DNA of 64,000 bases. It comes from Acidobacteriota bacterium (GTDB taxonomy: Bacteria > Acidobacteriota > Vicinamibacteria > Vicinamibacterales > UBA2999). Both the position numbers and the translations under genes were made by a program. Below, one piece after another: positions 3,067-40,803 of the stretch. Numbering within the stretch: the first letter of the stretch is position 1; each line of letters starts with the position of its first letter. The stretch spans positions 1-64,000 of the forward strand of contig JAUYQQ010000022.1 of assembly GCA_030697165.1 (NCBI GenBank), in the 5' to 3' direction. The notes under the pieces were generated by a model. It made no database searches and was not told the DNA's origin. It saw only the letters and a list, made by a program, of their open reading frames with translations.

Positions 3067-4466
3067 GCGAGGCGAGCGTCGTCACTCCCGCGGACATCGT
3101 CCGCGAGGCGGCGGCCCTGCGCCGCTCGCTCGATGCCGGCTTTCGCGAAGAGGTCGTGACGTCGCTATACGGTGAGGTGGAACGGATCACGCGGCGAGCC
3201 GTGCAGGATGCCGGTTCGCGTCCGCTCGAACTCGATCAGCGGATCGACCGGGTCGTGACCTCCCGGCTGTTCGGGCTGCCGCTGATGCTGGTGATCCTGG
3301 CGGTGATCTTCTGGCTCACGATCATCGGCGCCAACGTGCCGTCGCAGATGCTGGCGTCGGGGTTTTTCTGGTTCGAGGACCTGGCGGCCGGCTGGTTCAC
3401 CGAGCTCGGCTCGCCGTGGTGGCTCACCGGTTTTATCTGGCACGGCGTGTTTCGCGGGCTGGCCTGGGTGATTAGCGTGATGCTGCCGCCGATGGCGATC
3501 TTCTTTCCCCTCTTCACCATTCTCGAGGACCTGGGCTACCTGCCGCGGGTGGCCTTCAACCTCGACTACCTGTTCAAGCGCGCCGGGGCGCACGGCAAGC
3601 AGGCGCTGTCGATGGCCATGGGCTTTGGCTGCAACGCCGCCGGCGTGATTGCCACGCGCGTGATCGACTCGCCGCGCGAACGGCTGGTCGCGATCCTGAC
3701 CAACAACTTCGTGCCCTGCAACGGCCGTTTTCCGACGTTGATCATGCTGGCCACCATCTTTGTCGCCGCCGCGTTTCCGCCGGCCGTGGCCTCGCTGGTG
3801 GCCGCCGGGTCGGTGGTGGGGATCGTGCTGGTGGGGGTGCTGTTCACCCTGGTCGCGTCGTGGGCGCTGTCGAAGACCGTGTTGCGGGGCGAGGCCTCGG
3901 CTTTTACCCTCGAGTTGCCGCCCTACCGCCGGCCGGCGATGGCGCGGATCCTCTACACCTCGTTGATCGATCGCACGCTGTTCGTCTTGTGGCGCGCCAT
4001 TGTCACGGCCGCACCGGCCGGCGCGGTGATTTGGCTGCTGGCCAACATCTCGCCCGGTGGCGTGAGCCTGGCGACGCGGACCGCGACCTTCCTCGATCCG
4101 CTCGGCTGGGCCATGGGCCTGGACGGCGTGATCCTGCTCGCCTACATCATCGCCATTCCGGCCAACGAAATCGTCGTCCCGACCATGCTGATGGTCTACA
4201 TGTCGCAGGGCATGATGACCGAGATGGACTCGATGGACGGGCTGCGCGCCCTGCTCGTGGACGAGCACGGCTGGACCATGCTGACGGCGGTCAACCTGAT
4301 GTTGTTCTCGCTGCTGCACAATCCCTGCGCCACCACCATCATCACCATCTACAAGGAAACGCTGAGCGCGAAGTGGACCGCGATCGGCGCGTTGATGCCC
4401 CTGGCGCTGGGCTTCATCGTCACGCTCCTGACCGCCGCGATCGCCCGCACCCTTTTCGGGTTCTGA
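3063..4466 (+). CDS. feoB: FeoB permease subunit (C-terminal half, split FeoB)
   Basis: This 467-aa protein holds the polytopic membrane part of FeoB. The GTG start at 3063 overlaps the TGA of the GTPase gene, and an open frame further upstream is an artefact inside that gene. It has a short hydrophilic N-terminus (to about residue 60), then paired Gate-type hydrophobic regions, including LGYLPRVAFNLD and the conserved GFGCNAAGV motif. The Cys in GCNAAG and the Cys in VPCNGRFPTL are the family's pore-associated cysteines. Together with the upstream gene it forms the Fe(II) import channel. Its stop overlaps the start of ubiE. Confidence 0.94.
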   Translation: MSEASVVTPADIVREAAALRRSLDAGFREEVVTSLYGEVERITRRAVQDAGSRPLELDQRIDRVVTSRLFGLPLMLVILAVIFWLTIIGANVPSQMLASGFFWFEDLAAGWFTELGSPWWLTGFIWHGVFRGLAWVISVMLPPMAIFFPLFTILEDLGYLPRVAFNLDYLFKRAGAHGKQALSMAMGFGCNAAGVIATRVIDSPRERLVAILTNNFVPCNGRFPTLIMLATIFVAAAFPPAVASLVAAGSVVGIVLVGVLFTLVASWALSKTVLRGEASAFTLELPPYRRPAMARILYTSLIDRTLFVLWRAIVTAAPAGAVIWLLANISPGGVSLATRTATFLDPLGWAMGLDGVILLAYIIAIPANEIVVPTMLMVYMSQGMMTEMDSMDGLRALLVDEHGWTMLTAVNLMLFSLLHNPCATTIITIYKETLSAKWTAIGALMPLALGFIVTLLTAAIARTLFGF

Positions 4467-5173
4467 TGTCCCTGCGGACGGCGTTCGACACTCCTGACCG
4501 CAAACGCGCCCACAACCGCGCGCTGTTTGCGACCATCGCCGATCGTTACGACCTGATCACCAAGCTGCTCTCGTTCGGACAGGACGCGCGCTGGAAGCGC
4601 ACCCTGATCGCGCGGGCGCGCCTGCAGCCGGGGGAGCGCGTGCTCGACCTGGCGTGCGGCACCGGCGACCTGGCGTTTGCGGCCGCGGCACAGGGTGGGC
4701 GGGTGGTCGGCCTGGACCTCACCCATCGCATGCTGCAACTTGCCGCGCGCAAATCGGCGGCGGCCAGGTTGGTCACCGGCGACATGACCCACCTGCCGTT
4801 TGGGCCGCGGTCGTTCGACGTGGTGACCACGGGCTATGGGTTGCGCAACGTGCCGGATCTCGCGGCCGCCATCGACGAGATCGCCCGCGTCTTGCGGCCG
4901 GGCGGCCGCTTGCTGTCGCTCGACTTCAACCGCCCCGAGCCGCCGCTGGTCCGTGGCGCCTACCTGGCGTACCTCACGGTCGTCGGCGCCGGCCTTGGCT
5001 GGCTCCTGCACCGCGACCCCGACACCTATCGCTATATTCCCGCTTCGATTCGCCGCTACCCCGGTGCCGCCGGTGTGGCTGAGCTGCTGACCGCGCGAGG
5101 CTTCACCGCAGTGACGGTGGTGCCGCGGTTGTTTGGGCTGATGACCCTGCACGTCGCACAACGCGCGCGCTAA
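4466..5173 (+). CDS. ubiE: demethylmenaquinone/ubiquinone C-methyltransferase
   Basis: This 235-aa class I SAM-dependent methyltransferase has the UbiE/MenG signatures: FATIADRYDLITKLLSFGQD near the N-terminus, the SAM loop LDLACGTGDLAF, and GYGLRNVPD with LRPGGRLLSLDFNRPE. The C-terminal RDPDTYRYIPASIRRYPG matches the family's YxYLxxSI-type segment. It methylates demethylmenaquinone in the last step of quinone synthesis. The futalosine-pathway gene mqnE at 47315 suggests menaquinone is the substrate. The ATG overlaps the feoB stop (TGATG), so it is translated with the iron operon; I see no functional link beyond that. Confidence 0.93.
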   Translation: MSLRTAFDTPDRKRAHNRALFATIADRYDLITKLLSFGQDARWKRTLIARARLQPGERVLDLACGTGDLAFAAAAQGGRVVGLDLTHRMLQLAARKSAAARLVTGDMTHLPFGPRSFDVVTTGYGLRNVPDLAAAIDEIARVLRPGGRLLSLDFNRPEPPLVRGAYLAYLTVVGAGLGWLLHRDPDTYRYIPASIRRYPGAAGVAELLTARGFTAVTVVPRLFGLMTLHVAQRAR

Positions 5174-11648: not shown

Positions 11649-12449
11649 ATGCGTGATGACCCAATCCCGCGTTTCGTTCGCGTCCCCGCCGGCGAGTTCG
11701 CCATGGGTTCGGACGAGGGCGCCGACGACGAGCGACCGTCGCATCCAGTTCATGTGGACGCGTTTTATGCGTCGATCCACCCCATTACCGTCGAGCAGTA
11801 CGCCGAGTTCGCCCGCGAAGCGGGCTACGGCGCGCCGGCGATTCGCGACTTGCCGCTGTTCGTGACGCCAGCCCAGGAGTCGGCATTCCGGGAACTCGCG
11901 GCGCCGTACGTGTGGCGCGGCGGCGAGCCCCCGCGCGAACGCGCGCGCCACCCAGTGACCCTGGTCACCCATTCCGACGCGACCGCCTATTGCCGGTGGC
12001 TGAGCGGGCGCGTCGGCCGGCTGGTCCGGCTGCCGACCGAAGCCGAGTGGGAGCGCGCCGCGCGCGGTGGCCGCGTCGGCACCCGCTATCCCTGGGGGGA
12101 TGACGTGGACGCCTCACGTGCGAACTTTCTGCCCGACCCGGCGCTGAAGCGGCACCGGGGGACGCGTCCGGTCGGCTGCTATCCGCCCAACGAGATGCAG
12201 CTCTACGACATGGCCGGCAACGTCTGGCAGTGGGTGGCCGATTGGTATCGCGCCGATGCCTACCGCAGCGGCGAAAACCGCAACCCGCGCGGGCCGGGCA
12301 GCGGCACGTTGCGCGTGCTGCGCGGCGGCTCGTGGGTCACGCACGACGTCGACCAGCTTCGCTGCGCGCATCGGCACAAGGTGCCGCCCGATACCTATGC
12401 CTACAGCATTGGTTTTCGCGTCGTCTACTCGGACGACGGGTCGGGATAG
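11649..12449 (+). CDS. SUMF1/EgtB/PvdO-fold protein lacking the FGE cysteine pair
   Basis: This 266-aa protein has the formylglycine-generating-enzyme fold: FVRVPAGEFAMGSDEG at the start, HPVTLVTHSDATAYCRWLS, RLPTEAEWERAARGG, MAGNVWQWVADWY and LRVLRGGSW. True aerobic FGE uses two cysteines after GGS(F/W) in a C-x4-C arrangement. Here the segment reads GGSWVTHDVDQLRCAHR, without that pair. It is therefore unlikely to activate sulfatases by the known mechanism and could be another non-heme-iron or structural member of the fold. No signal peptide is visible from this start. It diverges from the aminotransferase gene. Confidence 0.88.
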   Translation: MRDDPIPRFVRVPAGEFAMGSDEGADDERPSHPVHVDAFYASIHPITVEQYAEFAREAGYGAPAIRDLPLFVTPAQESAFRELAAPYVWRGGEPPRERARHPVTLVTHSDATAYCRWLSGRVGRLVRLPTEAEWERAARGGRVGTRYPWGDDVDASRANFLPDPALKRHRGTRPVGCYPPNEMQLYDMAGNVWQWVADWYRADAYRSGENRNPRGPGSGTLRVLRGGSWVTHDVDQLRCAHRHKVPPDTYAYSIGFRVVYSDDGSG

Positions 12450-12453
12450 AAGC

Positions 12454-12489
12454 TAAGGTGCCTAAGGTGCCTAAGGTGCCAAAGTGCCA
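12454..12489. repeat. 9-bp tandem repeat, CTAAGGTGC family, copy 2
   Basis: Three to four units of CTAAGGTGC lie between the SUMF1-fold gene stop (12449) and the SIMPL-domain gene start (12512). The run decays into AAAGTGCC. It is the same family as at 5269, 38435, 47254 and 54159. Confidence 0.85.
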
Positions 12490-12511
12490 GGCTCCGTGGC
12501 ACACTGGCACC

Positions 12512-13207
12512 ATGGCACTCCTAAGAATCGCTTTCGCTTTCGTGATCGCCTCTGCCACCGTCGCTGCCGCACAAACGGCCCCGCCTGAGCCGCCGACGGT
12601 GGTGGTGTCGGGCGAAGGCGTGGTGAAGGCCGTACCCGACCAGGCGTGGGTGACCATTGGCACCGAGAGCCGATCGAAGGTTTCGAAAGAGGCCCAGTCG
12701 CGCAACGCCGAGGCGATGACCGCCGTGCAGCAGAAGCTCGGCGCGCTTGGCATCGCCAAGGATGCCATTCGCACCATCGCAATCGACCTGCAGTTGGAAT
12801 ACGACTACGCCAATGGCCGGCAGACGCCGCGCGGCTACGTGGCTCGCAACACCATTGAAGTGCGGGTTGACGACTTCGCGAAGCTCGGCGACGTGCTCGA
12901 TGCCGCCGTGGGATCCGGCGCGACCAACCTTCACGGCCTTCGTTTCGAGGTCAAGAACCGCGAGGCGCTCGAGCGCGAGGCGCTGCAGCTGGCCGTGGCC
13001 AATGCCATGGGCCGCGCCGAGGCGCTGGCCGCCGGTGCGAAGCGCACGATCGATCGCGTGATCCGGATTGAGGAGTCGTCGGTCGGCCGCGGCCCCGAGA
13101 TGCCGGTGATGGCCATGCGCATGAAGGCCGAGGACGCGAGCACGCCGGTCGCCGCCGGCGAGCTGGAGATCAGGGCGCAAGTCAGGATAATCGCCGCGCT
13201 GAAGTAG
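12512..13207 (+). CDS. SIMPL (DUF541) domain exported protein
   Basis: This 231-aa protein has a signal peptide (residues 1-20, ALLRIAFAFVIASATVAAAQ) and a SIMPL/DUF541 domain. Family traits are VVVSGEGVVKAVPDQAWVTIGTE after the signal, a long helix (SKEAQSRNAEAMTAVQQKL), and an ALEREALQLAVANAMGRAEALA segment near the C-terminus. The length is typical. Proteins of this family sit in the periplasm or outer envelope and are poorly characterised; some are linked to oxidative stress. The ATG at 12512 follows the tandem repeat with no strong Shine-Dalgarno. Confidence 0.88.
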   Translation: MALLRIAFAFVIASATVAAAQTAPPEPPTVVVSGEGVVKAVPDQAWVTIGTESRSKVSKEAQSRNAEAMTAVQQKLGALGIAKDAIRTIAIDLQLEYDYANGRQTPRGYVARNTIEVRVDDFAKLGDVLDAAVGSGATNLHGLRFEVKNREALEREALQLAVANAMGRAEALAAGAKRTIDRVIRIEESSVGRGPEMPVMAMRMKAEDASTPVAAGELEIRAQVRIIAALK

Positions 13208-13217
13208 CAAGTCGGAT

Positions 13218-13328
13218 ATGTCCCTTCCCACTATTACCCCGAGCAGCACCTCGTCGATCGTTGACGTGGTGCCGGGGCAGGTCATTCTCGACGCCCCGGA
13301 AGGCGCGTCGATTGGCGGCACCAACTGA
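13218..13328 (+). CDS. 36-codon small ORF coupled to the JAMM protease gene
   Basis: An ATG at 13218 opens a 36-aa frame whose TGA (13326-13328) overlaps the ATG of the JAMM gene (TGATG). The peptide is Ser/Thr/Pro-rich at the start, then VVPGQVILDAPEGASIGGTN. I recognise no family. The overlap suggests translational coupling or a leader peptide, and the peptide could also be a protease substrate or the remnant of a larger gene. Ten bases separate it from the SIMPL gene stop. Confidence 0.4.
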   Translation: MSLPTITPSSTSSIVDVVPGQVILDAPEGASIGGTN

Positions 13329-13816
13329 TGGACGGTCTCGTGCTGCAGCCGGCCGTCGATGCCGCGATTCGGGCCCATGGCCGGGAGGCGTTTCCGCATG
13401 AATGCTGCGGCGCCATGCTCGGCCGCGACGGCGTGGTGCACGAAGCGCATCCACTGCCGAACACTACCGAGGAAGGCCCGCGCCGCCGCTTCCTGGTGCG
13501 GCCCGACGATTATCGCGGCGCCGAGACGCGCGGCCGCGAAACCGGGCTCGACCTGCTCGGCTTCTATCACTCGCACCCGGATCACCCGGCGCGGCCGTCG
13601 CAGTACGACCTCGACCACGCCTGGCCGTCGTTTTCGTACGTGATCGTTTCGATCATGGCCGGCGAGGACAAGCTGCTCACGTCTTGGCGCTTGAAAGAAG
13701 ATCGCTCCGCTTTCGAGGAAGAGCCAGTCGCGATCACCACATCTCCAAATCTCCAAATCAGTGAATCCCGAAGCCAAATCACCAGATCACCAAGCCACCA
13801 AATCACCAAATCATGA
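13328..13816 (+). CDS. JAMM/Mov34 (Mec+-like) metallopeptidase
   Basis: This 162-aa protein has a complete JAMM zinc-protease motif: Glu25 (PHECCGAML), His81-x-His83 (GFYHSHPDHP), Ser91 and Asp94. Small stand-alone members of this type, such as mycobacterial Mec+, cleave peptide or isopeptide bonds after the Gly-Gly of sulfur-carrier proteins. The next gene encodes such a carrier fused to its activating enzyme, which supports that role. Residues about 137-162 are a Ser/Thr/Gln/Ile-rich tail encoded by a short repeat (13734-13815), so the native domain probably ends near residue 136. The stop overlaps the next start (ATGA). Confidence 0.9.
   Translation: MDGLVLQPAVDAAIRAHGREAFPHECCGAMLGRDGVVHEAHPLPNTTEEGPRRRFLVRPDDYRGAETRGRETGLDLLGFYHSHPDHPARPSQYDLDHAWPSFSYVIVSIMAGEDKLLTSWRLKEDRSAFEEEPVAITTSPNLQISESRSQITRSPSHQITKS
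13734..13815. repeat. low-complexity CAAATCACCA-type repeat read through by the JAMM gene
   Basis: The run consists of variants of CCAAATCTCC and CAAATCACCA, AT-rich against a GC-rich background. It is translated as the C-terminal tail of the JAMM protein and ends directly at the ATG of the MoaD-ThiF-rhodanese gene. The composition is unlike the flanking coding sequence. Confidence 0.8.
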
Positions 13817-15297
13817 CCAAGATCCTCATTCCAACGCCTCTCCGCCCCTTTACCGACAAGCTCGACACCGTGGAGGTGAGCGGCGCGACGGTCGGCGAGT
13901 TGCTGCAGAACCTGACCACCCAGTACGGCGGGTTGAAGCAGCACCTGTACGCGGCCGACGGCAAGCTGCGCAGCTTCGTCAACATCTACGTGAATGACGA
14001 TGACATCCGGTATTTGCAGAAGAACGAGACACCGGTCAAGGCGGGCGACACGGTCAGCATCATCCCGTCGGTGGCGGGCGGCGCCCCTTCGACTCCGGCA
14101 CACCCCGAGTCGCTCGGGGCAAGGCCCAGTGGTGAATCGCTGCCCGAGTTGTCGGGCGACGAGATCAAGCGCTACAGCCGCCACTTGATCATGCCGGAGG
14201 TCGGCGTCGAGGGGCAGCGCAAGCTGAAGGCGTCCAAGGTGCTGTGCATTGGCGCCGGTGGCCTCGGTTCGCCCGCGGCGATGTATCTCGCCGCCGCCGG
14301 TGTCGGCACCATCGGCATTGTCGACTTCGACGTCGTGGACTTCAGCAACCTGCAGCGGCAGTTGCTGCACGGCACGCCCGACGTGGGCCGGCCGAAGCTG
14401 GACTCGGCGAAGGATCGGCTGAACGCGCTCAACCCGAACGTTCACATCGAGACCTACGACGCGGCCTTGAGCTCCGAGAACGCGATGGAGTTCTTCGCGC
14501 CGTACGACGTGATCCTGGACGGTACCGACAACTTCCCGACCCGTTACCTGGTGAACGACGCCTGCGTGCTCAGCGGCAAGCCGAACGCCTACGGCAGCAT
14601 CTTCCGTTTCGAAGGGCAGGCATCGGTGTTCGCGACCAAGGACGGTCCGTGCTATCGCTGCCTGTATCCCGAGCCGCCGCCGCCGGGTCTGGTGCCGAGC
14701 TGCGCCGAGGGCGGCGTGTTCGGCGTGCTGCCCGGGATCATCGGCGTGATCCAGGCGACCGAAACCATCAAGCTGATCCTCGGTATCGGCGAGCCGCTGA
14801 TTGGCCGGTTCATGATCTACGACGCGCTGCGCATGCGCTTCCGCGAGTTGAAGCTGCGCAAGGATGCCGACTGCCCGGTGTGCGGCACCCACCCGACGGT
14901 GACCAAGTTGATCGATTACGAGCAGTTCTGCGGCGTGGCGCCGCACCAGCTGGAGGCGGCAAAGCCAATGATGACGAACGCAGACGCTGTAACGGCCCGC
15001 GAACTGAAGGCCGAACTGGACCGGGGCGAAAAGGTCGTGATCCTCGATGTCCGCGAACCCCAGGAATACCAAATCAACAAGATCCCCGGATCGATCCTTA
15101 TTCCGCTGGGCGACCTGCCGAAGCGCTACGTGGAGCTCGACCCGAACGCCACCATCGTGTCTCAGTGCAAGTCGGGAGTCCGCAGCGCCAGGGCACAGGA
15201 ATTCCTTCGTTCTAAAGGGTTTACGGGTGTTCGCAACCTCACCGGCGGCATTCTGGGCTGGATCGACCAGGTCGATCCGTCTCAGCCGAAGTATTAG
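13813..15297 (+). CDS. MoaD/ThiS-like, ThiF/MoeB (E1-like) and rhodanese fusion
   Basis: This 494-aa protein joins three sulfur-transfer modules. Residues 1-90 form a ubiquitin-like sulfur carrier ending in Gly89-Gly90 (SVAGG), followed by an APSTPAHPESLGARP linker. Residues about 118-385 form an adenylating E1-like domain with GAGGLGSPAAMYL, the FSNLQRQ segment and zinc cysteines (CYRC and CPVC). Residues about 395-494 form a rhodanese domain with active Cys452 (SQCKSGVRSAR). The carrier, its activator and a sulfurtransferase are therefore on one chain. The diglycine is internal, so proteolysis would be needed to free a C-terminal thiocarboxylate; the upstream JAMM protease is the obvious candidate. 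The likely pathway is cysteine, molybdopterin or thiamine sulfur supply. Confidence 0.92.
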   Translation: MTKILIPTPLRPFTDKLDTVEVSGATVGELLQNLTTQYGGLKQHLYAADGKLRSFVNIYVNDDDIRYLQKNETPVKAGDTVSIIPSVAGGAPSTPAHPESLGARPSGESLPELSGDEIKRYSRHLIMPEVGVEGQRKLKASKVLCIGAGGLGSPAAMYLAAAGVGTIGIVDFDVVDFSNLQRQLLHGTPDVGRPKLDSAKDRLNALNPNVHIETYDAALSSENAMEFFAPYDVILDGTDNFPTRYLVNDACVLSGKPNAYGSIFRFEGQASVFATKDGPCYRCLYPEPPPPGLVPSCAEGGVFGVLPGIIGVIQATETIKLILGIGEPLIGRFMIYDALRMRFRELKLRKDADCPVCGTHPTVTKLIDYEQFCGVAPHQLEAAKPMMTNADAVTARELKAELDRGEKVVILDVREPQEYQINKIPGSILIPLGDLPKRYVELDPNATIVSQCKSGVRSARAQEFLRSKGFTGVRNLTGGILGWIDQVDPSQPKY

Positions 15298-15350
15298 TCC
15301 GGCTGAAGCCGGACTCTACCTTCAGATGTAGCGTCCGCCTGTAGGCGGAC
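15297..15350. repeat. pair of REP-like palindromes (family A)
   Basis: Two 18-bp hairpins lie here: GTCCGGCTGAAGCCGGAC at 15297-15314 and GTCCGCCTGTAGGCGGAC at 15333-15350. Related copies are at 40804-40849 and 48421-48544. The first shares its initial G with the TAG stop of the preceding gene. They could act as a transcription barrier between this gene and iscR. Confidence 0.85.
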
Positions 15351-15360
15351 TATTGCCGAC

Positions 15361-15411
15361 TTGCAGTGTCGGATATCCACAGGCTAATATAGGACTCCTG
15401 CGGTCGTATAT
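15361..15411 (+). promoter_or_regulatory. promoter with IscR-type operator for the isc-suf operon
   Basis: TTGCAG (15361-15366), an 18-nt spacer and TAATAT (15385-15390) form a sigma70-like promoter. From 15387 to 15411 lies a 25-bp dyad laid out like the E. coli IscR type 1 site: outer ATA and TAT, inner GACT and GGTC, with a 5-nt centre. Only one inner base departs from the GACT/AGTC consensus. It overlaps the -10 box and start site, and iscR begins at 15427. This predicts autorepression by holo-IscR. Confidence 0.65.
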
Positions 15412-15426
15412 GCAGAATCCGAAATT

Positions 15427-15924
15427 ATGCTGAGACTTTCGAAGAAATCCGATTACGCATTGCTCGCGATGAAACACCTGGCGACGCGCCCCGATGGCAG
15501 CGGCTCGTCGAGCGCTCGCGAGATTTCGGAGTCGTACGACATCCCCCTCGAGTTGCTCGCCAAGGTGCTGCAGCGCATGGTGCGCGCGCGCCTGCTCGTG
15601 TCGGTGCAGGGAACGCGCGGTGGCTACCGATTGGGCCGGCCGGCGGCGACGATTTCCGTCGCCGACGTGATCCAGTCGGTGGATGGTCCCGTGACCGTCA
15701 CGGCCTGTTCAGACGATGACCACACCTGCGACCAGTACACCAAGTGCAACATCCGCGACCCGCTGTGGAAGATCAAAAATCGCATTCTCGATGCGTTGAA
15801 CACGGTCAGCGTGGCCGAGATGGCAGCGGAAGCGGAGGCCGCGATGGCGGCACCTGCGCCGACGGTATCGCGAATGATGTTCGTTCCGGCGATCGGCGAG
15901 GCCAAGGGCGTTGTGAGTGAATGA
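15427..15924 (+). CDS. iscR: IscR-like Rrf2-family Fe-S sensing regulator
   Basis: This 165-aa regulator has an N-terminal winged helix ([16 protein letters not shown], then the wing [12 protein letters not shown]) and three cysteines in the IscR cluster-binding arrangement, C-x6-C-x5-C (within [14 protein letters not shown]). These ligate a [2Fe-2S] cluster. It is first in the isc-suf operon and follows a matching operator, so it probably represses the operon when Fe-S supply is adequate. The stop overlaps the start of iscS (ATGA). Confidence 0.93.
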
Positions 15925-17069
15925 ACATGATCTACCTCGACCACCACGCGACGACCCCCGTGGATGCGCGTGTGCTCGAGGCCATGCTGCCGTTCTTCTC
16001 CGAGAAGTTCGGGAACGCAGCCAGCAGGCAGCACGCGTTCGGTTGGGCTGCGAGCGATGCGGTTGAGCGGGCCCGCAAGCAAGTGGCCGCGCTCGTCGGC
16101 GCGGGCGGCAAGGACGTGATCTTCACGAGTGGTGCGACCGAGGCGAACAACCTCGCCATCAAGGGCGCAGCGAAGGCACGGCGAGAACGCAACCACCTGG
16201 TGACGGTGGCCACCGAGCACAAGGCGGTGCTCGACCCCATGGCGCGGCTCGCGCACGAGGGCTGGACGGTCACGGTGCTGCCGGTCAACGGCGCCGGCCT
16301 GATCGACCTGGGCGAGCTTGAAGCCGCGATCACCGAGCGCACCGCGCTCGTCAGCGTGATGGCGGCGAACAACGAGATCGGCGTACTGCAGCCGATCAAG
16401 GACGCGGCGGCGCTGGCCCACGCGAAAGGCGCGTGGTTCCACACCGACGCGGTGCAGGCGGTGGGGAAGGTGCCGTTCGACGTCGAGGCGCTCGATGTCG
16501 ACTTCGCCTCGATCACGGCGCACAAGGTGTACGGCCCAAAGGGCGTCGGCGCCTTGTATGTGCGGAGGAAGGGTCGGACCGTCGCGGCGATTGCCGAGAT
16601 CGATGGCGGCGGCCACGAGCGCGGCTTGCGGTCGGGCACGTTGAACGTGCCGGGGATTGTCGGCTTCGGGCAGGCGGCGGAGATTGCCCGCGCCGAAATG
16701 AAGGAAGAGGCCGGGCGCACCGCGGCGCTTGGCGAGCGGTTGTTGAAGGCGCTCTACGCGACGACCGACGGGATGACGGTGAACGGCTCGCTCGATGCGC
16801 GGCTGCCCGGCAACCTCAACGTGAGCTTCGATGGAGTTGACGGGGAAGCGTTGCTGGTGAGCCTCGACGACATCGCGGTGTCGTCGGGTGCCGCGTGCAC
16901 CGCCGCCGAACCGTCTCACGTGCTCGTTGCGCTCGGGTTGTCGAAGGACCGGGCACTGGCCTCGCTGCGATTCGGCATCGGGCGAGGCACCACGGCCGAA
17001 GACGTCGATTACGCGGCCGCCAAGGTGGCGGACGTCGTGACGCGGCTGCGCGCCATGTCGCCGGTGTAA
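15921..17069 (+). CDS. iscS: cysteine desulfurase, IscS/NifS type
   Basis: This 382-aa PLP enzyme removes sulfur from cysteine for Fe-S and other sulfur uses. It shows the group I signature [11 protein letters not shown] at the start, the [13 protein letters not shown] cofactor region, [10 protein letters not shown], the PLP Lys202 ([11 protein letters not shown]) and the persulfide-carrying Cys326 in a flexible loop ([15 protein letters not shown]). A separate SufS lies later in the same operon, so the operon carries two desulfurases. The third gene downstream is an altered IscU-like scaffold. Confidence 0.93.
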
Positions 17070-17072
17070 GAC

Positions 17073-17438
17073 GTGCGCTACTCGGACGAGGTGCTCAAGC
17101 GCGTCCGCGAGCCGCAACGGGTGGGGGCGCTGCCCGCCGGGGCCGACGTCGGCTCGGGCGTGTTGGGAACGTTTGAGGAAGGCACGGTTACGCGGATCGA
17201 TGTTCGCGTGAACGGGGATCGCGTCGTGGAAGCGCGGTTCAAGGTGTTTGGCTGCAGTGCGGCCATTGCGAGCGCCAGCCTGGTGGCCGAGTGGCTGGAA
17301 GGCGCGGCGGTAGACGAGGCGAAGGCACTGACAGCCGAGCGCGTCGTCGAGGCGCTCGGCCTGGCCCCGGAGCGAGAGTACGTCGGGCGCATGGCGGTTG
17401 ACGCCGCGCACCAGGCATTGGCGAAGGTAGAGAGATGA
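17073..17438 (+). CDS. IscU/NifU-N-like protein with only one scaffold cysteine
   Basis: This 121-aa protein follows IscU along its length: VTRIDVRVNGDRVVEARFKV, FGCSAAIASASLVAEWLEG and DEAKALTAERVVEALGL. IscU ligates Fe-S clusters with three cysteines, an Asp and a His. Here only Cys61 remains. The first Cys region reads PAGADVGSG, keeping the Asp but with no Cys, and the third reads YVGRMAVDAA in place of HCSxLAxDA. It is the only Cys in the protein. The start is GTG at 17073. It could be an accessory or sulfur-relay partner of IscS rather than a scaffold. The stop overlaps iscA. Confidence 0.82.
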   Translation: MRYSDEVLKRVREPQRVGALPAGADVGSGVLGTFEEGTVTRIDVRVNGDRVVEARFKVFGCSAAIASASLVAEWLEGAAVDEAKALTAERVVEALGLAPEREYVGRMAVDAAHQALAKVER

Positions 17439-17764
17439 TCGAAATTACTGAAAGCGCATCGCGCGTCATCAACAAGCAGCTGACGAAGAACCAGCACCCG
17501 GGCGGCGGGTTGCGGATTGCCATCAAGGCCGGCGGCTGTTCGGGCTTCAGCTACCAGTTTGCCTGGGACGCCTCGGCCCGCGACAGCGACGTCGTGTTCG
17601 AGGGCGCCGGTGGCGCGAAGGTGTTTGTCGATCCGCGCAGCCTGAAGCTGCTCGACGGCACGGTGCTCGATTTCGACGAGCACAACATGATGGCGACGAC
17701 GTTCACCTTGAAGAACCCGCATGCGACCAGCACCTGCGGCTGCGGCACGTCGTTCTCTGCTTGA
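17435..17764 (+). CDS. iscA: A-type Fe-S carrier (IscA/SufA/HesB)
   Basis: This 109-aa protein has the three conserved cysteines of A-type carriers: one in [10 protein letters not shown] and two in the C-terminal STCGCGTSF. It delivers clusters to apoproteins. The start overlaps the previous stop (ATGA). About 50 bp of repetitive GGGAGTCGG sequence separates it from sufB. Confidence 0.94.
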
Positions 17765-17768
17765 CCGG

Positions 17769-17803
17769 TTCCGGGAGTCGGGAGTCGGGAACCGGGAGTC
17801 GGA
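17769..17803. repeat. short GGGAGTCGG tandem repeat
   Basis: Three imperfect units of CGGGAGTCGGGA fill the gap between iscA and sufB. The repeat is followed by seven A residues (17804-17810) and the ATG at 17814, so sufB lacks an obvious Shine-Dalgarno unless the GGAG of the last unit serves. Confidence 0.75.
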
Positions 17804-17813
17804 AAAAAACACA

Positions 17814-19259
<1,446 letters not shown>

Positions 19260-19262
19260 ATC

Positions 19263-20017
<755 letters not shown>

Positions 20018-20018
<1 letters not shown>

Positions 20019-21283
20019 TGGAAGCTCTCGTGCAAGCCGCGCCGGCGTGGGTCAAGGAACGCCGCGAGGCGGCGGCGACGCATTTTGCCGCGGTCGGCTA
20101 TCCGACGACCCGACTCGAGGATTGGCGCTTCACCAACGTGTCGCCGATCGCCGAGGCCAACTGGCCCCTGGCGCAGGGCGCGTTCGCGCAGGCGGCGGAG
20201 CTGGTGTCATCCGTCAACGTTCCGGGCGCCGTGCGCCTGGCCATCGTCAATGGCCAGTTTGCGGCGGGCCTGTCGGACTTGAGCGCGTTACCCAAGGGCC
20301 TGCGCATTGCCAGCCTGCGCGACGGCGCGCGCGATGCGACGGACGGGATCGAGACGCACCTCGGCAAGGTGTTCAGCATCGCCGCGCATCCGTTTGCGGC
20401 GCTGAACACGTCGTTCCTGGATGACGGCGTCGCGATCATGGTGACCAAGGGGGCGGTCGTCGAGACGCCCATTCATATCGTGATCGTCACCGGCGGCGAC
20501 CAGCCGGTGGTGGCGCATCCGCGCGTCCTGATCGTGGCCGGCGAAAACAGCCAGGTCCGCGTGGCGCAGTCCTTCATTGGCGCCGCGGGTGCGACGTACT
20601 TCAACAACGCGGTGGCGGAGGTCGTGGTCGGCCAGGGCGCGCGGGTCGAGCTCTACACCGATCAGCGCGAGTCGGACCAGGCCTTTCACCTCGCCAACAT
20701 CCAGGCGCATGTCGAAGCCAGGGGCGTGTTCGAGTCGCACGCCTTCTCGACCGGCGCCCGCATCATGCGCCACGACATCGGCATCGGCCTCAAGGGCGAA
20801 GGCGCCGACTGCACCATGAACGGCGTCTACCTCGCCGACGGCGAGCGGCTCATGGACACCCACACCTCGCTCGATCACGCCATGCCGCACTGCACCAGCC
20901 ACGAAATCTACAAGGGGATCCTGGCCGGCAAGTCGAAGGCGGTGTTCAACGGCCGCATCATCGTGCAGCTCGACGCGCAGAAGACCGACGCCAAGCAGAC
21001 CAACCGCGCGCTGCTGCTGTCGGACGATGCGACCATCAACTCGAATCCGCAGCTCGAGATCTTTGCGGACGATGTGAAGTGCACGCATGGGGCAGCGGTG
21101 GGGCAGTTGGACGAAGAGGCCTTGTTCTATCTGCAGGCCCGCGGGTTGAACCGCGAAGAAGCCCGCGAGATGCTGCTGCACGCGTTTGCCGGCGAGGTCA
21201 TTCAGGGCCTGAAGATCCCGGCCTTGCGCGAGCAGATCGAGAGCAACTTCTTTGCGCGCCTTCGCAAGGACACGGCCCGCTGA
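20018..21283 (+). CDS. sufD: Fe-S assembly protein SufD
   Basis: This 421-aa protein is the SufB paralogue of the SufBCD scaffold. It has a helical N-terminus (EDWRFTNVSP), the beta-helix core, and a C-terminal block CTHGAAVGQLDEEALFYLQA that contains the conserved His used with SufB for cluster assembly. It overlaps sufS by one base (TGATG). Confidence 0.95.
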
Positions 21284-40777: not shown

Positions 40778-40803
40778 GTGGGACTGGCGGACAGCAATGT
40801 GGC

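Follow-up and report, generated by a model that had tools for sequence, protein, structure and literature searches.

Among the ubiquitin-like sulfur carriers, QbsE and HcyS are pro-carriers of siderophore or methionine pathways, whose short tails behind the diglycine are removed by the dedicated JAMM proteases QbsD and HcyD, respectively. In the eukaryotic Uba4-Urm1 system the carrier Urm1 is separate and unmasked. In the parts of PMC3227635 that deal with the mycobacterial CysO-CysM-Mec+-MoeZR pathway, CysO-Cys is hydrolysed by Mec+, and MoeZR serves both CysO and MoaD (PMC3227635). The passages on the operon types 4b and 4c in Iyer, Burroughs and Aravind (2006, PMC1779556) describe a ThiS/MoaD-like carrier, a JAB protein and an E1 with rhodanese, with or without a cysteine synthase, list an acidobacterium (Susi) under type 4c and already suggest that JAB might free ThiS or MoaD from fusions. 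Moreover, the sections concerned report that a protease not yet identified at that time cleaves MoaX, a MoaD-MoaE fusion, between Gly82 and Ser83 (PMC4326299), and that DRJAMM cuts the Deinococcus MoaD-MoaE fusion DR2607 (PMC8832034). Here, we describe a locus in which a sulfur carrier is fused to its own activating E1 and a rhodanese and is preceded by a JAMM protease gene and a mini open reading frame (mini-ORF). It is located in a stretch of 64,000 nucleotides of an Acidobacteriota bacterium (assembly GCA_030697165.1, contig JAUYQQ010000022.1, positions 1 to 64,000), which as a whole is called the window below, and consists of the following elements:

13218..13328, + strand: mini-ORF of 36 codons, read as an in-frame deletion remnant of cysM with the start region, one internal piece and the last ~10 codons
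13328..13816, + strand: JAMM/Prok-JAB metalloprotease, Mec+-like, 162 amino acids (Pfam PF14464, E 2.9e-25)
13733..13813, + strand: 8-nucleotide tandem-repeat stretches of CCAAATCA type (TRF rows 13733-13759 and 13774-13813), which make up the JAMM C-terminal tail when translated
13813..15297, + strand: carrier-E1-rhodanese fusion, 494 amino acids (Pfam ThiS 1.4e-15, ThiF 2e-86, Rhodanese 7e-21)
13813..14082, + strand: sulfur carrier domain of the ThiS/MoaD/CysO type, residues 1-90 (Pfam ThiS 1.4e-15; PDB 3dwg_C, 1.4e-16 over residues 4-90)
14077..14082, + strand: internal diglycine Gly89-Gly90, invariant in 45/45 aligned fusions, with predicted cleavage after Gly90
14083..14148, + strand: unconserved linker that masks the diglycine, residues 91-112 (variable or mostly gapped columns; model confidence below 50 at residues 87-107)
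14149..14928, + strand: E1 adenylyltransferase domain (MoeB/ThiF), residues 113-372 (Pfam ThiF; Foldseek 6yub Uba4, 1zfn ThiF, 1jw9 MoeB)
14977..15294, + strand: rhodanese domain, residues 389-494, with the invariant Cys452 (Pfam 7e-21)

The three ORFs, the 4-nucleotide overlap of the JAMM stop with the fusion start (ATGA, 13813-13816) and the internal position of the diglycine are all present as the initial annotation had described them, as judged from ORFs and Pfam domains. Furthermore, the mini-ORF stop TGA (13326-13328) and the JAMM start ATG (13328-13330) have one base in common in a TGATG junction. Judged from sequence, the set is derived from a sulfur relay of the CysO/CysM/Mec+/MoeZ type but is not an intact member of it: a diglycine carrier, an E1 with C-terminal rhodanese and a JAMM protein with the E..HxH..S..D set are all found, whereas in place of an adjacent intact CysM the window holds a remnant only, and the carrier is predicted to be made in masked form. 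According to established E1 chemistry, a carrier whose diglycine is internal undergoes neither adenylation nor thiocarboxylation until it is cut, in this case after Gly90. We propose that the CysO-type carrier is synthesised in one chain with the E1 that activates it and is inactive in this pro-form, that the JAMM protease would cut after Gly90 in the disordered linker, and that a free carrier ending in the diglycine would be released together with the E1-rhodanese; both the cut itself and JAMM as the cutter we infer. E1 would then adenylate Gly90 of the carrier and Cys452 of the rhodanese would supply the persulfide, leading to the thiocarboxylate carrier-COSH. Ancestrally, CysM would have made carrier-Cys from carrier-COSH, and the same JAMM protein would have clipped the cysteine off. 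After cysM had been lost in this genome, the 36-codon remnant was perhaps retained as a leader that couples JAMM translation to its own, and the relay would persist probably because the sole ThiF-family E1 found would have to serve MoaD and ThiS as well. JAMM-dependent maturation of the carrier is very likely, and we regard the account as a whole, with masked carrier, JAMM maturation and cysM-derived relay, as highly probable. It draws on the domains, the invariant catalytic residues, the masking, the cysM remnant, the single E1 match and low ratios of nonsynonymous to synonymous substitution rates (dN/dS), all of which can be read from the sequence. The term "self-processing" that had been applied to the set is inaccurate, because protease and fusion are two distinct polypeptides.

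From 325 relatives found in a scan of bacterial and archaeal genomes, the best 80 were selected and analysed together with the window as 81 loci. The diglycine has further residues behind it in 81/81 of them, i.e., in 54 loci with a fusion to E1-rhodanese and in 27 with a separate carrier ORF (split loci), some of the latter being possible assembly errors. Behind ..AGG, 1-38 residues lead to the E1 core in the fused loci, and the split carriers have tails of 1-24 residues. In the alignment, which comprises 45 of the 54 fusions, Ala88-Gly89-Gly90 is invariant (45/45), and columns 91-112, which form the linker, vary or consist mostly of gaps. Proline never stands directly behind the diglycine (0/81), but one position further in 16/76. 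JAMM was detected in 73/81 loci, and in the alignment of these 73 sequences Glu25 of the catalytic set is found in 71/71 aligned there and His81, His83, Ser91, and Asp94 in 73/73. Together with the low dN/dS, these counts give strong comparative support to the claim that the internal diglycine is inactive until cut, with the coupled JAMM as the likely enzyme, and Gly90 and His81 (codon at 13568-13570), which had been proposed for mutation, are both invariant. The state of the carrier, fused or split, was mapped on a quick tree of E1-rhodanese and changes at least eight times, seven changes being forced by well supported branches; the window belongs to a supported set of eight rows, of which seven are fused and L017 is split. 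Because of these repeated changes on the one hand and the residues behind the diglycine in all 81 loci on the other, the fusion is labile and the masking is constant. An ATGA or GTGA, by visual reading a possible start of the E1 gene, overlaps the stop codon of the carrier in 12 of the 27 split loci. The carrier tail of L064 includes hairpin-like repeat DNA, and in L049 the stop is followed by a short direct repeat, so that tails may originate from whatever DNA follows the carrier.

A control set of 94 loci was composed of the loci that a search for ThiS in 60 class genomes had returned, the ThiS loci of the window's own genome and 60 hand-chosen regions. It gave 94 carrier rows (two from L102, none from L091), partly identical with loci of the 81, which were classed according to which of four query carriers gave the best score; three rows without a diglycine near the alignment end were dropped, and JAMM was counted as local if it lay on the same strand at a distance of up to 1.5 kb. 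All CysO-like carriers with a local JAMM are masked (34/34), whereas CysO-like carriers without one are masked in three cases and free in three, and in total 12/57 carriers without local JAMM are masked (Fisher p 4e-15, which is descriptive only, since the rows are related and hand-picked). One MoaD-type carrier (L190; G036, C120) continues for 150 residues past the diglycine, much as MoaD-MoaE fusions do, and the stretch fetched for it contains no JAMM. Five matches to the ThiS family occur in the own genome, one of which, inside a 728-amino-acid frame, only just passes the family cut-off. Its three clear carriers other than the fused one end in ..PPVSGG, ..PTMAGG, and ..FVGGG, each directly before the stop, and masking is therefore limited to the JAMM-linked carrier in this genome.

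The mini-ORF, which has no Pfam family match, translates to MSLPTITPSSTSSIVDVV / PGQVILDA / PEGASIGGTN followed by the stop. It was compared with the cysM regions of five relatives by short local blastn-short matches, a global DNA alignment being uninformative. It matches the cysM start of L012 (61 nucleotides, 72%, E 2.8e-8), an internal cysM piece (27 nucleotides, 78%, E 0.015) and, with its 3' end, the cysM end and JAMM start of L012 (40 nucleotides, 87.5%, E 1e-9), where all E-values refer to this tiny five-sequence subject set; the three matches are collinear. The intact CysM of L008-L010 ends in ..PPEGASICGTN with a TGA that overlaps the JAMM ATG, and the junction in L011 is TAATG. By its length alone the mini-ORF is compatible with a chance open frame, and it is its match to cysM that makes it real. 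From this comparison it is near certain that it represents an in-frame deletion remnant of cysM that has kept the start and the stop-start overlap with JAMM. A CysM-like match, whole or partial, is found in 66/81 loci, usually directly upstream of JAMM; for L071 the CysM-like name comes from NCBIfam and lies below its cut-off. Two further loci carry remnants in one frame, L007 (identical with L153, G050) with CysM residues 2-18 and 255-306 and L028 (identical with L203, G037) with about 2-110 and a C-terminal piece. All three large internal cysM deletions are thus in frame as separate events (3/3; about 1 in 27 by chance), which hints weakly at selection for coupled translation.

The initial annotation had implied that the mini-ORF is a functional third component and had proposed to check its conservation. 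A real small protein or leader peptide whose own function is conserved would fit the open frame, the TGATG overlap and the three in-frame deletions, as far as these reflect selection for coupled translation. However, the mini-ORF consists of three collinear CysM pieces, the remnants of L007 and L028 keep different pieces, so that the peptide is not conserved, three in-frame deletions can also arise by chance, and cysM is frame-broken in L059 and L068. We consider such a function improbable and retain the reading as a cysM remnant. Among nine genomes of the genus, five have an intact cysM (one ~2.9 kb upstream), two have remnants (that of the window and that of G050), one has a cysM cut by the contig end with intact 3' half, and one could not be assigned. 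The best other CysM-like match of the window's genome has 39% identity. One internal TGA each was reported for the CysM matches in G006, G052, and G084. In L071, cysM and a C-terminal rhodanese form one ORF upstream of JAMM (3144-4517, NCBIfam), and likewise cysM-rhodanese ORFs were found by phmmer in L063, L072, L074-L077, L079, L080, L083, L084, and L086.

Despite the loss of cysM, JAMM and carrier look to be under purifying selection. Between the window and L007, both with cysM deleted, JAMM has a dN/dS of 0.086, the carrier one of 0.097 and E1 one of 0.032; these values are no higher than those between L009 and L010, both with cysM (0.122, 0.134, and 0.061, respectively); against four relatives the carrier has values of 0.05-0.13. 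Since dN/dS of JAMM is low without cysM, the protease is probably retained for a role beyond clipping the product of CysM, and unmasking of the carrier is the simplest reason. In the window's genome, which has 5.39 Mb and a stated completeness of 100, one ThiF-family E1 match (E up to 0.01), one Prok-JAB match and four clear carriers were found, and therefore MoaD and ThiS presumably also depend on the fused E1. Exactly one ThiF-family match (E 1e-10 or better) is found in 37/60 genomes of the class, so that several carriers may often share one E1 in this class. That the fusion E1 is the only one found and that cysM is deleted would also fit a vestigial or regulatory carrier domain that needs no cut, with only the E1-rhodanese working on MoaD and ThiS. 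Yet the invariant Ala88-Gly89-Gly90 and the low dN/dS of the carrier speak for a carrier in use, as does the close relative L017 with the carrier as an ORF of its own, unless this is an assembly error, and we regard a vestigial carrier as very unlikely.

Several observations weigh against JAMM-dependent unmasking in the form proposed here. Of the MoaD/ThiS-type carriers in the control set, none of which has a JAMM in its locus, 9/51 have residues behind the diglycine and 42 are free. G029 (L245) has a free carrier ending at the diglycine ~3 kb from cysM-JAMM-E1-rhodanese on the opposite strand. In G005 (L246, L247, L195) two such free CysO-like carriers coexist with the one JAMM of the genome, beside which a further carrier is masked by a single residue, and a carrier-E1 fusion occurs without JAMM in the 6 kb fetched. 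It follows from G029 and G005 that JAMM does not serve unmasking only and that masking is not absolute. JAMM was not detected in the loci L023, L027, L029, L030, L039, L055, L057, and L065. Six of these eight genomes have a strong Prok-JAB match elsewhere; in that of L055 the sole Prok-JAB match is weak (2.5e-5) and the JAMM profile matches nothing, and for L065 (Omnitrophota, 0.9 Mb, completeness unknown), with masked fusion and cysM, no JAMM was found in the genome, so that this is either an incomplete genome or a real exception. The dN/dS signal may partly predate the loss of cysM. In L059 and L068 a near-complete cysM is broken up over several frames, either truly or through assembly error, so that cysM breaks are not always in frame. 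Finally, TIGR00269, which is linked to TtuA, has no match in the own genome; tRNA thiolation as a new use of the sulfur was rejected on this ground, and in six of nine genus genomes only matches below the cut-off were found. The operon being of the CysO/CysM/Mec+ kind, and free carriers occurring near JAMM in G029 and in the G005 genome, JAMM might only recycle carrier-amino-acid adducts, as in the known Mec+ step, with the fusion cut by another protease or incidentally. This is, however, unlikely in our view: the window and L007 have lost cysM and should form no CysM adduct unless a different synthase provides it, dN/dS of JAMM is nevertheless 0.086, and masking accompanies the local JAMM. 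Unmasking by JAMM is therefore preferred here.

The AlphaFold model of the fusion (mean predicted local distance difference test score, pLDDT, 84.9) has well-folded carrier, E1 and rhodanese domains and values below 50 at residues 87-107, which suggests a flexible joint at the diglycine. A Foldseek search with the model returned Uba4 (6yub, 6yuc), ThiF (1zfn), and MoeB (1jw9) on top, and Cys452 of the rhodanese is invariant among the 45 aligned fusions. The chain 3dwg_C, to which the carrier is related, we take to be CysO. An internal translation start that would yield a separate E1 is unsupported, as an in-frame start codon between diglycine and E1 core is absent in 28/54 fusions and comes with a Shine-Dalgarno-like site in 1/54. 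The linker was also considered as a dispersed repeat, but its 63 bases of DNA match only themselves in the genome, and the core pattern is at chance level in the window. The fusion is single-copy, and a duplicate of E1-rhodanese was rejected, since the four other matches in the genome cover the rhodanese part only. The AlphaFold2 model of the JAMM protein has a pLDDT of 91.9; its relatives in the PDB are 2kcq, 2kks, and 5ld9, and it matches the NCBIfam desampylase with E 2.2e-21, below the family cut-off. The 8-nucleotide pattern of CCAAATCA type gives 6 matches (0.04 expected), and through these repeats the JAMM C-terminus extends as far as the ATGA overlap, whereas in the close relative L007 its tail is only 10 residues long.

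Compared to the mycobacterial pathway as described in the respective parts of PMC3227635, carrier, E1-rhodanese and JAMM are alike, and cysM is present in whole or part in the 66/81 loci; unlike there, the carrier lies N-terminal to its own E1 in 54/81, the diglycine is masked, and cysM of the window is reduced to 36 codons. The operon is of the type 4c kind and of the CysO/CysM/Mec+ cysteine type, but the passages describing types 4b and 4c contain neither a carrier-E1-rhodanese fusion nor masked separate carriers (PMC1779556). With the MoaD-MoaE fusions, as far as the sections on them go, the window fusion shares an internal diglycine that needs cutting for an active carrier, which makes it a candidate for the JAMM-processed carrier fusions, the masking, the residues at P1' and the selection pointing indirectly to a JAMM cut behind the second glycine, whereas their partner is the end-user MoaE of another pathway and the partner here is the activating E1 (PMC4326299, PMC8832034). 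Uba4-Urm1 is alike in that an E1-rhodanese activates a ubiquitin-like sulfur carrier. JAMM release of fused carriers is thus already known from MoaD-MoaE, and the fusion of a carrier to its activating E1 is a variant. A literature search, with subscription journals mostly outside its coverage, found no description of a carrier-E1-rhodanese fusion or of masking as a family rule. The resemblance to bacterial precursors of ubiquitin conjugation and processing, which had been pointed out earlier, holds for the maturation step but not for conjugation, as no E2 or E2-like protein was found among the neighbouring proteins in a local, not genome-wide, scan (12230-20421) and the operon is of the cysteine type.

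Since a JAMM protease that cleaves behind the diglycine was already present, any tail or fusion at this site would be tolerable. Tentatively, a one-way ratchet can be envisaged, in which such a protease made the stop behind the diglycine dispensable and tails and E1 fusions spread across phyla, while JAMM went from a product-release enzyme to an obligatory activator that outlives cysM and here gates the only ThiF-family E1, on which the synthesis of molybdenum cofactor and thiamine would depend. The comparison suggests that proteolytic unmasking, known from ubiquitin precursors, is the norm in a widespread group of bacterial sulfur carriers and not a peculiarity of the MoaD-MoaE fusions. The repeated loss of cysM indicates that the operon retains the protease after loss of the enzyme that first required it. 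The genome is a clean test case for JAMM as obligatory activator, since a single E1 match and a single Prok-JAB match stand beside four clear carriers and an intact CysM of this kind is lacking.

Directly downstream of the fusion gene, a mixed ISC/SUF cluster forms one run from 15427 to 20018:

15427-15924, + strand: Rrf2 regulator
15921-17069, + strand: IscS-like Aminotran_5 protein
17073-17438, + strand: IscU-like protein, below the NCBIfam cut-off
17435-17764, + strand: HesB-like Fe-S_biosyn protein
17721-19259, + strand: SufB-like protein
19263-20018, + strand: ABC ATPase

The clustering of neighbours was blurred by antisense shadow ORFs and served as a lead only. A palindrome, AGTCCGGCTGAAGCCGGACT, lies directly behind the E1 gene at 15296-15315 and is perhaps a dispersed hairpin element; the window holds three further copies with 3 mismatches each at 40803, 40831, and 48420.

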